A stretch of 64,000 bases of DNA from Bacteroidota bacterium (GTDB taxonomy: Bacteria; Bacteroidota; Bacteroidia; JAHEXY01). The notes under the pieces are model-generated. The model ran no database searches and was not told the origin of the DNA. It saw only the letters and a program-made list of their open reading frames with translations. Where the stretch lies: positions 1-64,000 of the forward strand of contig JAHEXY010000007.1 of the NCBI GenBank assembly GCA_023251875.1. The letters run 5' to 3'. Shown here one piece after another: positions 16,701 to 54,337 of this stretch (its first letter is position 1; every line of letters begins with the position of its first letter). The position numbers and the translations under genes were made by a program.

Positions 16701-16739
16701 TTCCCTCTCCCCTTTGGGGAGAGCCGGAGAGGGGTGGTC
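16701..16739. repeat. GGGGAGGG-type palindromic repeat, copy B
   Basis: A reverse-orientation copy reading CCCTCTCCCCTTTGGGGAGA followed by GCCGGAGAGGGGTGG. It fills the junction between the two RemB-like genes, touching the stop of the upstream gene (16738). In one frame it is translatable as PSPALPKGEREI, which accounts for the spurious long N-terminus of the downstream ORF. Confidence 0.65.
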
Positions 16740-28933: not shown

Positions 28934-28969
28934 GCCCTCACCCTACCCTCTCCCAAAGGGAGAGGGAGT
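28934..28969. repeat. GGGGAGGG-type palindromic repeat, copy C
   Basis: This forward copy, GCCCTCACCCTACCCTCTCC followed by CAAAGGGAGAGGG, contains a perfect CCCTCTCCC/GGGAGAGGG hairpin. It lies between the sprA stop and the gcvH start. The stem could act as an RNA 3' end stabiliser for sprA, but it has no T-run. Confidence 0.65.
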
Positions 28970-36684: not shown

Positions 36685-36709
36685 GCCCTCTCCCAAAGGG
36701 AGAGGAGAT
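36685..36709. repeat. GGGGAGGG-type palindromic repeat, copy D
   Basis: This short forward copy, GCCCTCTCCCAAAGGGAGAG followed by GAGAT, is located 15 bp beyond the ruvA stop and upstream of the sprA promoter. It lacks the extra CCCTC half-site seen in copies C, E and F. Confidence 0.6.
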
Positions 36710-49683: not shown

Positions 49684-52233
49684 CTATTCCTGAAAATATA
49701 TTCTCTTTACTCTTGATGAAATTCCCGTAAGTATTTCATAAGAAATAGTATTGAGTTTTTTAGCAAGTTCCTTAATGTGTGTATGCTCATTAAAAATAAT
49801 TACCTCATCACCTTCTAGTGCTTTTATATGGGTAATATCCAGCATACACATATCCATACACACATCTCCAATAATGGGAGCTTTTTGATTGTTAATATAA
49901 AAGCAAGCATTTCTATTGCCTAATTTTCTGTTCAGTCCATCTGCATAACCAATGGGAATTGTAGCAATAATCATATCCTTTTTTGCTTTTTCTCTTCTGT
50001 TATAGCCAATAGTTTCGTTTTTAGAAACAAATTTTATTTGAGAAATAACGGATTTTAGTGAACCTACATTTTCTAAATGTTGTTGATACATAGTGCCCGA
50101 AGCTATTCCATACAAACCAATACCCAAACGCACCATATCATATTGAGCTTTTGAATGCCGCAATACACCACCCGAATTTAATATATGCTTCATTACTTTA
50201 TAACCTACTACTTTCATTATGTCAATACTCATACTTTCGAATCTTTTAATTTGCTGAGCAGTAAAATTATCATGCTTTGCATCATCACTTGCTGCTAAAT
50301 GAGAAAATATAGATTGTATTTTAAAAAAGGGATAGGATATAATTTTATTTTTTAATGCTTCAATATCTTTTTCTTCAAAACCCAAACGATGCATACCAGT
50401 ATCCAATTTTATATGGATAGGAGATTGGGTAAATGAAGTATGATCGTACAATTTTGTTTTATTAAAAATGAAACGGTTTACCGTTTCAATCAATTGCTGA
50501 AGCACCCTAAAATTATACACTTCAGGCTCTAATTTATAAAACAACATGTTTTCAAAACTGTGTTCTTCCGGACTCATTACCAATATGGGCAAAGTAATAC
50601 CGGCTTTTCGTAGTTCAATACCTTCATCAGCATAGGCAACAGCTAAATAATCTACTTTTTGAAATTGCAGCACATTAGCAATTTCATAGCTTCCACTTCC
50701 ATACGAAAATGCTTTTACCATTGCCATTATTTTTGTTTGCGGCTTTAGTTTTGAGCGAAAATAATTAAGATTGTTTACCAGGGCATTTAAGTTAATTTCT
50801 AAAATAGTTTCATGAGATTTTTTTTGCAATGCACTACTAATTTGCTCAAACTTAAATGAACGTGAACCTTTAATTAAAATGGTTTCATCATTGAATTGTG
50901 ATGCTCCCAACTGATCTAGGAATTTTTGTGTTGATGGATAAAAAATTTGCTCTTTACATTTGAATAGCTTCTTTTCCCTGGTAATTTCATGTCCAATACC
51001 AATTAAACGATCTACTCCTTTTCTATCAATTATTTCAGCAATTTCTTTATACAGTTCTTTTCTGCTTTTTCCGGACTGAAGTATGTCTGATAAAATCAGC
51101 GTGTTTTTTGTTTTCTTATTTTGCTGATTCAAAAAATCCAATGCAATTGATAGCGATTCAATATCTGAATTATAACTGTCGTTAATAATTGTACAAGCAC
51201 TAATGCCTTCTTTTAATTCAAGCCGCATGGCAACAGGTTGCAATTGTAACATGCGTTTTTGAATGAGTTCTTGTTCATAGCCCATTACTAACATAAAAAG
51301 CCAACAAGTAATAGCATTATCAACGGAAGCATGATCAGTATAAGGAATAATAATATCAATATTTTTATTTTTATATAAGGCGCTAATACAAGAAAATCCA
51401 TCTTGTTGTTTTATATTTTGAATTTGTAAACTTGCTTTACTTTGTTTTGACCAAGAGTAAATACTTGCCTTATTTAATGTTTTATCATTTGTAATAAGCT
51501 TATCAAGAACATCAAAATCTTTACAATAAATGATATACTTGCAATGAGAAAATAGTTTTAGCTTTTCTTTTGCTTTTTGTTCAATGTTAGCAAAATTTTC
51601 ATGATGTGCTTGGCCAATGGTTGTAATAATACCAATGGTAGGTTGAATAACAGCTTGGAGCTTTTGCATTTCGTTTGGCTCTGAAATACCAGCTTCAAAT
51701 AATGCCAATTTGTGCTTTGCTTTTAATTGCCAAACAGATAAAGGAACTCCCACTTGCGAATTGTAACTCTTAGGACTTCTAACAATTACTTTATCTTGAT
51801 GCAACAATTGAAAAAGCCATTCTTTCACCACTGTTTTACCATTGCTTCCGGTTATAGCTACTACCGGCATTTGAAATTGTTCACGATGGTGGGCGGCTAA
51901 TAATTGAAGAGCTTGTAATGTGTTTTTTACAAGAATAAAATTTGCCTCTGTACAAATTGAAATATAATAAGAAGCATTTTCTGAAATGATAAAATTTCGT
52001 ACCCCTTTTTTATATAACTCTTCGATATAATGATGGCCATTATTTCTTTCGCCTTTAATAGCAAAAAATAAAGTTGAATCAGGAGAGGATAATTTGCGGC
52101 TGTCGATTAACACCCCTCCTAGCCTCCCCAAAGGGGAGGGATCAGTTTTTAAAATCTTAGGTGCAAATAATTTTCCATTTACAATATTTGCAACAGATGG
52201 CATTGTGTAATATATATGTTGTTGTTTGCTCAT
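49684..52233 (-). CDS. murF-alr: Bifunctional MurF / alanine racemase
   Basis: The fused enzyme (about 849 residues from the ATG at 52233) is typical of the phylum. The N-terminal MurF ligase joins D-Ala-D-Ala to the UDP-MurNAc tripeptide. It shows SRKLSSPDSTLFFAIKGERN, the P-loop VVAITGSNGKTVVKEWLFQL, TIGIITTIGQAHHENFANIE and INDSYNSDIESLSIALDFL. The C-terminal PLP-dependent racemase makes D-Ala. Its PLP lysine is in AMVKAFSYGSG and its catalytic tyrosine in IGYNRREKAKKDMI, followed by IPIGYADGLNR. Residues about 31-41 ([11 protein letters not shown]) are encoded by a palindromic repeat, copy F. The longer ORF start at 52311 overlaps tdk and runs through copy G, so it is rejected. Confidence 0.9.
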   Translation of the reverse strand: MSKQQHIYYTMPSVANIVNGKLFAPKILKTDPSPLGRLGGVLIDSRKLSSPDSTLFFAIKGERNNGHHYIEELYKKGVRNFIISENASYYISICTEANFILVKNTLQALQLLAAHHREQFQMPVVAITGSNGKTVVKEWLFQLLHQDKVIVRSPKSYNSQVGVPLSVWQLKAKHKLALFEAGISEPNEMQKLQAVIQPTIGIITTIGQAHHENFANIEQKAKEKLKLFSHCKYIIYCKDFDVLDKLITNDKTLNKASIYSWSKQSKASLQIQNIKQQDGFSCISALYKNKNIDIIIPYTDHASVDNAITCWLFMLVMGYEQELIQKRMLQLQPVAMRLELKEGISACTIINDSYNSDIESLSIALDFLNQQNKKTKNTLILSDILQSGKSRKELYKEIAEIIDRKGVDRLIGIGHEITREKKLFKCKEQIFYPSTQKFLDQLGASQFNDETILIKGSRSFKFEQISSALQKKSHETILEINLNALVNNLNYFRSKLKPQTKIMAMVKAFSYGSGSYEIANVLQFQKVDYLAVAYADEGIELRKAGITLPILVMSPEEHSFENMLFYKLEPEVYNFRVLQQLIETVNRFIFNKTKLYDHTSFTQSPIHIKLDTGMHRLGFEEKDIEALKNKIISYPFFKIQSIFSHLAASDDAKHDNFTAQQIKRFESMSIDIMKVVGYKVMKHILNSGGVLRHSKAQYDMVRLGIGLYGIASGTMYQQHLENVGSLKSVISQIKFVSKNETIGYNRREKAKKDMIIATIPIGYADGLNRKLGNRNACFYINNQKAPIIGDVCMDMCMLDITHIKALEGDEVIIFNEHTHIKELAKKLNTISYEILTGISSRVKRIYFQE
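52110..52141. repeat. GGGGAGGG-type palindromic repeat, copy F, inside murF-alr
   Basis: ACACCCCTCCTAGCCTCCCC followed by AAAGGGGAGGG is the best-formed copy of the family and lies within the coding region of murF-alr. It is translated on the minus strand as [11 protein letters not shown], an in-frame addition in the N-terminal MurF domain between KIL and LIDSRKL. Confidence 0.75.
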
Positions 52234-52241
52234 GGCTTTAT

Positions 52242-52272
52242 TCCCCTCCCCGTTGGGGAGGTTAGGAGGTGT
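52242..52272. repeat. GGGGAGGG-type palindromic repeat, copy G, at the tdk/murF-alr junction
   Basis: In opposite orientation to copy F, this copy reads TTCCCCTCCCCGTTGGGGAG followed by GTTAGGAGGTGT. Its reverse complement matches copy F at nearly every position. It overlaps the last codons of tdk, encoding the final HTS and the stop codon. Confidence 0.7.
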
Positions 52273-52843
52273 GTTTTTGATTATTATAACAATCTCTGCA
52301 CAGTGCTTCATATTCTTGTTTTTCTCCCAATACTACCAATGATTCTTCTGAACCAATACGATAAGAATGGTGAGCTAAGTATCCACAACGAATACATATT
52401 GCATGAACTTTAGTTACATATTCTGCAACAGCCATTAGATTGGGTATTGGCCCAAATGGCAAACCTCTAAAATCGGTATCTAGTCCCGCAATAATAACCC
52501 TCACACCACGGTTAGCAAGTGTATTGCATACGTTCACCAATTCCATGTCAAAAAATTGAGCTTCGTCAATACCCACCACATCAATATCATTGGCGTATAA
52601 AAGTATGCTTGAAGAAGAAGTTACGGGTGTAGAACGAATCGCATTTTCATTGTGAGATACCACCATTTGTTCATGGTAGCGAGTGTCAATGGCAGGTTTA
52701 AAAATTTCTATTTTTTGTTTGGCATATTCAGCACGCTTTAACCTTCTGATCAATTCTTCGGTTTTTCCTGAAAACATAGAACCACAGATTACTTCAATCC
52801 ATCCTCTTTTTGATGCGCTATTTGCTGTATTTTCTAAAAACAT
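52262..52843 (-). CDS. tdk: Thymidine kinase
   Basis: The 193-residue type II thymidine kinase phosphorylates thymidine with ATP for salvage. The P-loop is in [20 protein letters not shown] (about residues 18-37). The Walker B-like segment is [20 protein letters not shown]. The lasso-domain zinc cysteines are in [11 protein letters not shown] and CRDCY. The C-terminal residues HTS and the stop codon come from repeat copy G, so the native end of the protein has been slightly altered. The 139-bp hairpin element lies directly upstream. Confidence 0.95.
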
Positions 52844-52861
52844 TTTTTACTTTCTTGTCAA

Positions 52862-53000
52862 ACCTCTACGAGGTATAGATTCAAACACATATTTTTTCTA
52901 CAATACTAAATGCCCTATGGGCAATAAATAGCAGATACGCCATAGGCGTTATATTATTGTAGAAATGTAAATATTATATAAAAACATACCGCATAGCGGT
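52862..53000. repeat. Composite element with four 13-bp hairpins in mirror order
   Basis: Four palindromes share the same geometry, a 5-bp stem and 3-base loop: ACCTC-TAC-GAGGT (52862), TGCCC-TAT-GGGCA (52911), ACGCC-ATA-GGCGT (52937) and ACCGC-ATA-GCGGT (52988). The stem sequences differ, but all pair perfectly. The spacers between 1-2 and 3-4 share TTCTACAATA and its reverse complement TATTGTAGAA. The whole is therefore two copies of one unit facing each other. It occupies the gap between the divergent tdk and M28 peptidase genes. Confidence 0.65.
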
Positions 53001-53068
53001 TAAATTGCAAACATCAAAGGTACGCAAAAAGATTTTCGTAATTTGTCATTAGTAATTAGTAATTCTTT

Positions 53069-54337
53069 ATGCGAATATTTTTTCCTTCTATAATAATAGT
53101 ATTGGTAAATCTTCATCTATTATATGCACAAGATCTCTATTATACTCACAATGTAATTGACACACTTACCTCCCCATACATGGCTGGTCGCGGTTATGTG
53201 CAAGAGGGGCACAATAAAGCAGCTTTGTATATAAAAAATCAATTTGAGCAAATTGGATTAAAACCTGTCAGCAATGAATTCTATCAAAAGTTTAGTTTTC
53301 CTATAAACACATTTCCAGAGGAAATTTCTCTTGAAATAGACCATCAAACTTTAGTTCCGGGAAAAGATTATTTAATTGGATCAGATGCTCCATCCATTAA
53401 GGGAAAATATAAACTCGTTTATGTAGATAGCACCATTAAAATAGACAGTAAAGCCAGAAATGATTTTTTTAAGAAAAAATATTCCCATTCTTTTTTAGTA
53501 ATAGATTTAAAAACTTTTGAAGGCAAACAAAACAAATCACTCTTAGATTCATTAGAAGAAAATATTTGTGGAGCTGATGGCATTGTTTTACTTGAGCCAA
53601 AAAAATTAACATGGCATCCGTCTCAAAACGAAAATAAATTTCCAAGTCTTTTTATTCTTAAAAGTGCGATGCCGGTTCTTGCAAAAAACATTTCAGTTTC
53701 GTTTACAAATACTTTTATCAAAAATCTTACTTCACAAAATATTATTGGTTTTGTAAAGGGAACAGCATACCCCGATTCTTTCATTGTACTTACTGCCCAT
53801 TATGATCATTTGGGCATGATGGGTGATAGTATTTATTTCCCTGGAGCCAATGATAACGCAAGTGGTACTTCTATGTTATTAAATCTCGCAAAATATTATG
53901 CATCACATCCACAAAAATATTCTATTTGCTTTATTGCTTTTAGTGCAGAAGAAGTTGGATTGCTGGGCTCAAAATATTTTTCGGAACATCCTTTATTTCC
54001 ATTGTCCAATATTAAATTTTTATTGAATATGGATTTACTGGGAACCGGTGATGATGGCTTAATGGTTGTAAACGGAAAAATTTATCCTGATTTGTATGAT
54101 AGTTTAGTTGCCATCAATAATCTCCACCATTATTTACCTGAAATCAAAAGTAGAGGCAAAGCCGCCAATAGTGATCATTATTGGTTTACTGAAAAGGGTG
54201 TAAAATCATTTTTCGTTTATACTCTTGGGGGTATTGCTGCCTATCATGATATTTACGACAAAGCTGAGACTTTGCCATTGACAAAATATACGGAGGTATA
54301 TAAATTGATTACTGAATTTATAGGCAAACTTCAATAA
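53069..54337 (+). CDS. Exported M28-family metallopeptidase
   Basis: The 422-residue protein has an N-terminal signal peptide (MRIFFPSIIIVLVNLHLLYA-Q). An M28 aminopeptidase-like zinc domain from about residue 230 shows VLTAHYDHLGMMGDS (first His), FPGANDNASGTSMLLNLA (bridging Asp) and FIAFSAEEVGLLGSKYF (Glu pair). Further family landmarks are LLNMDLLGTG and SDHYWFTEKGVKSFFVYT, the latter including the last His ligand. The N-terminal 200 residues include a PA-like insert typical of exported M28 enzymes. The site is complete. It lacks a T9SS sorting domain, so it probably works in the periplasm. Family members release N-terminal amino acids or process peptides; the precise substrate is unknown. 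Confidence 0.88.
   Translation: MRIFFPSIIIVLVNLHLLYAQDLYYTHNVIDTLTSPYMAGRGYVQEGHNKAALYIKNQFEQIGLKPVSNEFYQKFSFPINTFPEEISLEIDHQTLVPGKDYLIGSDAPSIKGKYKLVYVDSTIKIDSKARNDFFKKKYSHSFLVIDLKTFEGKQNKSLLDSLEENICGADGIVLLEPKKLTWHPSQNENKFPSLFILKSAMPVLAKNISVSFTNTFIKNLTSQNIIGFVKGTAYPDSFIVLTAHYDHLGMMGDSIYFPGANDNASGTSMLLNLAKYYASHPQKYSICFIAFSAEEVGLLGSKYFSEHPLFPLSNIKFLLNMDLLGTGDDGLMVVNGKIYPDLYDSLVAINNLHHYLPEIKSRGKAANSDHYWFTEKGVKSFFVYTLGGIAAYHDIYDKAETLPLTKYTEVYKLITEFIGKLQ

Follow-up and report, generated by a model that had tools for sequence, protein, structure and literature searches.

The gap between tdk and the gene for an M28 family peptidase, in the 64,000-nt stretch of DNA analysed here (the window), holds a complete element of four hairpins, which is probably a non-autonomous copy of REPIN/BIME-like type, moved as single-stranded DNA by a cognate TnpA of subclass 1.2. 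We favour this reading because unlike halves are paired in every complete copy, the stems covary and a transposase gene lies between copies; because the HuH fold of the enzyme has structural matches and hairpins are enriched about 20-fold in the flanks of such genes, at 71 of 71 loci; and because the TAG offset is fixed, the loop polarity flips across the gene, repeats and gene track each other in 40 genomes, and filled and empty sites exist in Flavobacterium.

The four-hairpin element and its family

The initial annotation had described four palindromes of 5-3-5 geometry in the tdk/M28 gap, arranged in mirror image as two inverted units, and direct reading bore this out: all four are present and perfect, and the layout is as described (Table 1). 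The window contains 16 palindromes of 5-3-5 geometry with at least three G/C pairs, four of them in this gap, whereas in first-order Markov shuffles of the window no 135-bp span ever held more than two of them, which rules out a chance origin. When folded as single-stranded DNA, either strand gave exactly the four hairpins and a stem between the two motifs (z = -5.4). On the minus strand, 9 nt separate the GTAG of the left half from hairpin B, which precedes it, and 23 nt from hairpin A, which follows; in the right half, read on the plus strand, the corresponding distances are 9 nt (hairpin C before GTAG) and 25 nt (hairpin D after it). The window also holds a palindromic repeat of another kind (CCCTCTCCCaaaGGGAGAGG and TCCCCaaaGGGGA), at 16703-16723, 28946-28966, 36686-36706, 52125-52137 and 52247-52259; the last two copies are inside a long, murF-alr-like open reading frame (49684-52311) that reads through both.

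Table 1. Features of the window site and its neighbouring genes (positions in the window).
Feature	Position	Strand	Basis or remark
Complete four-hairpin element A-B-C-D, two inverted half-units	52857..53005	no strand	direct reading and copy comparison
Hairpin A, outer (hp2 type), ACCTC-tac-GAGGT	52862..52874	no strand	direct reading and half-unit alignment
Motif, TTCTACAATA on +, TATTGTAGAA on -	52896..52905	-	direct reading
Hairpin B, inner (hp1 type), TGCCC-tat-GGGCA	52911..52923	no strand	direct reading and half-unit alignment
Hairpin C, inner (hp1 type), ACGCC-ata-GGCGT	52937..52949	no strand	direct reading and half-unit alignment
Motif TATTGTAGAA (reverse complement of TTCTACAATA)	52955..52964	+	direct reading
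Hairpin D, outer (hp2 type), ACCGC-ata-GCGGT	52988..53000	no strand	direct reading and half-unit alignment
tdk, thymidine kinase (context only)	52262..52843	-	start codon 18 nt from hairpin A
M28 family peptidase (context only)	53069..54337	+	transcribed away from tdk

A covariance model of the half-unit, scanned over the 4.8-Mb source genome, revealed a dispersed family with covarying stems. It matched 48 places. Five of these were set aside, namely two (C5:73846-73996) from a related second family, two flanking another transposase gene on C17 and one weak match, which leaves about 43 half-units of the window family. Seventeen complete inverted pairs were present, the window copy among them, and in ten of these the spacing between the two model matches was exactly 7 nt. 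Within each half-unit the inner hairpin (hp1) is followed after 9 nt by GTAG and, about 23 nt further on, by the outer hairpin (hp2). Copies resemble each other up to a TNAA tag, about 5 nt outside the outer hairpins, and no further. All 22 loci checked were intergenic and the dispersed copies carry no gene; the copies have diverged, and no very recent identical pair was seen among those of the source genome.

The argument from covariation is based on an alignment of 20 half-units, all from the source genome, in which 97.5% of stem cells were paired and 38 cells carried double-sided changes; pairing fell to 27-41% when the partner was slid, and none of 500 shuffles reached as high a value. This supports the earlier suggestion that selection acts on structure, and copies examined for broken stems or loss of grouping had intact stems, with the four palindromes recurring together in the source genome and in other genomes. 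The view that the stems are unrelated in sequence did not survive the comparison. Hairpins A and D are two versions of an outer hairpin (ACC[T/G]C), and B and C of an inner one, the stem type being specific to its position across copies; most outer hairpins read ACC[T/G]C-tac-G[A/C]GGT, and inner ones are of the TGCCC or the AC[G/A]CC type. All 17 complete copies pair one TGCCC-type half with one ACRCC-type half, a result with a probability of 8e-6 under random pairing of types; therefore the entity that is inherited or spreads is the complete unit and not the half.

Two further families were noticed in the source genome. The second four-hairpin family, at L226 (C5:73846-73996) and at L222, L223, L224 and L225, has stems GCCCC, GCTCC and GCCAC and a TTTGTAGAAA motif, and no cognate transposase gene was seen beside its copies. 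The third, with 6-bp stems (AACCCT, AAGCCC and CCCAAT types), is dispersed (L234, L237, L238, L240), and its apparent cognate gene (L052, C5:316022-316366) is interrupted by stop codons.

A transposase gene flanked by hairpin repeats

A search of the source genome with Pfam Y1_Tnp (PF01797) gave its best match at C11:196448-196792, in a gene (C11:196433-196894, locus L041) that lies between copies of the element. Upstream, a complete element ends 18 nt before the start codon; downstream, a half-element begins 8 nt after the stop codon, with more halves 0.8 kb further on. The gene, encoded once for the window family, specifies a protein of 154 aa with an HuH motif and the sequence YIEDQEQHH. 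The protein scored 98 bits against PF01797 and 76 bits against NF033573 (cut-off 55), exceeding the cut-offs of these IS200 TnpA models, and 24.7 bits against the NCBIfam model REP_Tyr_transpos, below its cut-off of 80. Its predicted structure (pLDDT 93.6) has a fold that matches the TnpA proteins of ISDra2 and IS608 and, more weakly, the REP transposase of E. coli. Quentin et al. (2018, PMC6006769) give HuH plus Y---Q--HH (YxxxQxxHH) as the signature of TnpA-Y1 subclass 1.2 and, judged by this motif, the C11 protein belongs to that subclass. The same survey tabulated subclass 1.2 as 'REP: no' and described it as generally lacking typical IS200 terminal structures (PMC6006769). Other subclass 1.2 genes of the source genome also have their own hairpins, on both sides for those on C17 and C22 and a broken copy at C5:316 and upstream only for that on C15, and the hairpin design at the C5:134 gene is divergent. 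The genome thus carries several independent gene-hairpin sets, with one gene per repeat type.

The association extends beyond the source genome. At 80 named homologous loci (mostly from Bacteroidota, some from Ignavibacteria), which are the nearest among at least 567 relatives and may differ from divergent members, hairpin density was 1.1-1.5 per 100 bp beside the gene and 0.06 far from it, an enrichment of about 20-fold. All 71 loci with both flanks had at least two hairpins in the two 500-bp flanks together, compared with 13% of distant 1-kb windows, and 58 of the 71 had at least four, compared with 1.5%. The common layout is hp1 - 9 nt - [G/A]TAG - about 23 nt - hp2 - gene - hp2' - ... - hp1', and in 65 of 113 units of other species TAG is at offset 10 from hp1. 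Upstream of the gene most loops are GN(N)A with a closing C-G pair, and downstream most are TN(N)C, so that strand polarity is fixed and flips across the gene; C(GNA)G loops form unusually stable DNA mini-hairpins. The 8 nt that follow hp1 and those that follow hp2 are more similar within a unit (0.60) than between units (0.46; 0 of 2000 permutations), as are the stems of the two hairpins, and hp1 and hp2 therefore look like copies of one monomer. The units of a further alignment (A4) were chosen as perfect palindromes, which makes its figure of 100% pairing circular.

Among 40 genomes of the same class, scanned with a general model of the repeat (R2) and compared with no correction for kinship, 26 have a homologue of the transposase gene. 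R2 matched 17 of these 26 and one of the 14 gene-negative genomes (Fisher p = 6e-4), including 14 of 14 genomes whose gene scores above 140 bits; the nine gene-positive genomes in which R2 found no match are mostly those with divergent genes. Genome G022 (another family) has the same layout, hp2-CTACAAT-hp1-hp1-ATTGTAG-hp2, again with unlike stems. Four Flavobacterium genomes have 74-108 R2 matches each, and in this genus the hp2 hairpins are commonly central instead. In F. flabelliforme, a search with the dispersed-copy pattern gave three matches and one with a GTTA-loop pattern gave one, both patterns being narrower than R2.

Mobility and competing explanations

One element site of F. ginsenosidimutans was searched for in 61 genomes of Flavobacterium. 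The orthologous site is filled in two species (G045 and G066) and lacks the element in four (G100, G093, G105 and G104), where its place is taken by a short hairpin of ordinary terminator type. At a second orthologous site the arrays are of unequal length, about 870 and 220 bp (L258, L260). These differences show gain or loss of the element without identifying the enzyme responsible; gain is the direction that we infer. The first of these sites lies at a convergent gene pair (L272-L274, L277, L278, L282); as the hairpin found in its place in the four other species resembles an intrinsic terminator, the element may have taken over termination there.

The likely enzyme for the window family would be the product of the C11 gene, a TnpA-Y1 protein (HuH, single catalytic tyrosine) of subclass 1.2. 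When the DNA becomes single-stranded, for example as lagging-strand template, the short hairpins would fold and be bound by TnpA, which would cut beside a short tag and join the end to another site, so that the unit of about 140 nt would be moved or copied whole. The unlike stems would keep the two mirror-image halves from folding together as a single long hairpin. Movement by subclass 1.2 TnpA, its contact with the element, the position and strand of the cut and the single-stranded route are all inferred. The initial annotation had offered, as an alternative to selection, a copying mechanism that regenerates palindromes, and it was right in spirit, in that a single-strand DNA transposase is associated with the copies.

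A rival idea is that the hairpins act in mRNA, as a terminator or structural element that ends or stabilises transcripts, the DNA having merely diverged. Three terminator-like matches occur in the region, where shuffles give none, and at one Flavobacterium site the element occupies the position that an ordinary terminator has in relatives. However, the window copy is upstream of two divergent genes, the T-runs are weak, and the 21 copies with both neighbours occur in all contexts (5 convergent, 4 divergent and 12 co-directional); given this gene context, an RNA or terminator function was set aside as the main role. A search of Rfam gave no match, only a sub-threshold GcvB that we took as chance. 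Since this explanation also leaves the transposase association, the fixed pairing of unlike halves and the loop polarity relative to the gene unaccounted for, we consider it unlikely; some copies may terminate transcription as a side effect. It seems equally improbable that TnpA and its repeats are a domesticated system that serves the host, kept for replication, repair or nucleoid structure and no longer moving. Such a system would fit with one gene per repeat type, with strictly intergenic copies and with the similar position of the gene in two Flavobacterium species (L150, L180), and it is compatible with past movement, but presence/absence and array-length differences at orthologous sites speak against it, as do several independent gene-hairpin sets in one genome.

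The possibility that the hairpins are passengers in a miniature derivative of a classical insertion sequence with terminal inverted repeats arises from units with AGAG[A/C]CTGTTTAAATTT inverted ends, which enclose hairpin elements at L225 and L238 in the source genome and at L202-L208 in G005; identical hairpin stretches occur there in unlike flanks, and the nested copies of G005, some of them at contig ends, are identical. The hairpin element may hitch-hike in such a mobile element, and another transposase may move some of these copies. The window copy and the rest of its family have no such ends, their similarity stopping about 5 nt past the outer hairpins, and the transposase whose gene accompanies the repeats is of Y1 type; the passenger explanation is thus disfavoured for the window copy, and we regard it as very improbable.

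The REPIN/BIME-like reading matters for the enzyme as well as for the repeats. Subclass 1.2 was previously described as close to IS200/IS605 transposases without the properties of either IS or REP, which left its DNA substrate to be identified, and our data supply a candidate, defined by its geometry, tag and polarity and present in many genomes. The Flavobacterium species with 74-108 model matches each make its function directly testable. If correct, the reading would also explain a frequent type of short, unannotated intergenic repeat in Bacteroidota.

Comparison with known systems

The initial annotation could name no family of this design, a statement to be qualified, as REP/BIME/REPIN sequences with their TnpA-REP (RAYT) are the same kind of system, although the design does depart from their definition. 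Dispersed intergenic palindromes, inverted pairs, GTAG and short perfect stems are common to both (PMC6006769; PMC8266576), stems of 5 bp being known from one Marinomonas REPtron (Quentin et al., 2018, PMC6006769; PMC8266576), and as in a REPtron a single HuH-Y1 gene is flanked by its own repeat type (L041 here, and 71 of 71 named loci). The family is dispersed, intergenic and present in many copies, as REPs are (about 43 half-units; 22/22), and has two inverted units, as BIMEs and REPINs do (17 inverted pairs). In contrast, a canonical REP has GT[A/G]G 0-2 nt 5' of the hairpin foot, whereas here GTAG follows hp1 by 9 nt and precedes hp2 by 23-25 nt; each half has two hairpins with different stems; and RAYT/TnpA-REP enzymes are of class 2 (Y---NP), whereas this one is of subclass 1.2 (YIEDQEQHH).

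IS200/IS605 elements (IS608, ISDra2) share the hairpins at the ends and the HuH single-tyrosine TnpA and include the closest solved enzyme structures. They have one subterminal hairpin per end, an adjacent guide tetranucleotide and a gene in each copy, whereas here there are two hairpins per end and gene-free dispersed copies, each end is an inverted copy of the other, and the gene itself does not occur as a large set of identical copies. The enzyme resembles TnpA-Y1 subclass 1.2 in its Y---Q--HH motif, length of about 150 aa, low copy number and occurrence in Bacteroidota, but differs from the survey's 'REP: no' in having cognate hairpin repeats at 71 of 71 testable loci. The repeats of TnpA-REP subclass 2.6 (Bacteroidetes, atypical secondary structures), in the accessible part of their description, come from the same phylum, are gene-adjacent and fall outside the canonical REP rule; that enzyme has the motif YIH[QN]NP, unlike here. 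A Cardinium MITE was rejected as the same element, being IS982-derived and different. No description of the present repeats was found in one survey and partial open-access coverage of the literature, and the accessible part of a Chryseobacterium paper uses 'RayT' and describes no repeats.

We therefore regard the element as a variant of the REPIN/BIME-type system that is not a member of the canonical REP/RAYT or IS200 families. Tentatively, subclass 1.2 TnpA and its hairpin elements could form a single-strand DNA mobility system of their own in Bacteroidota and Ignavibacteria. Each end would carry two hairpins with a TAG set between them at a constant distance, only one strand would have stable loops of GNA type, and the stems of the two halves would stay unlike, so that the mirror-image unit folds into four hairpins and not one.
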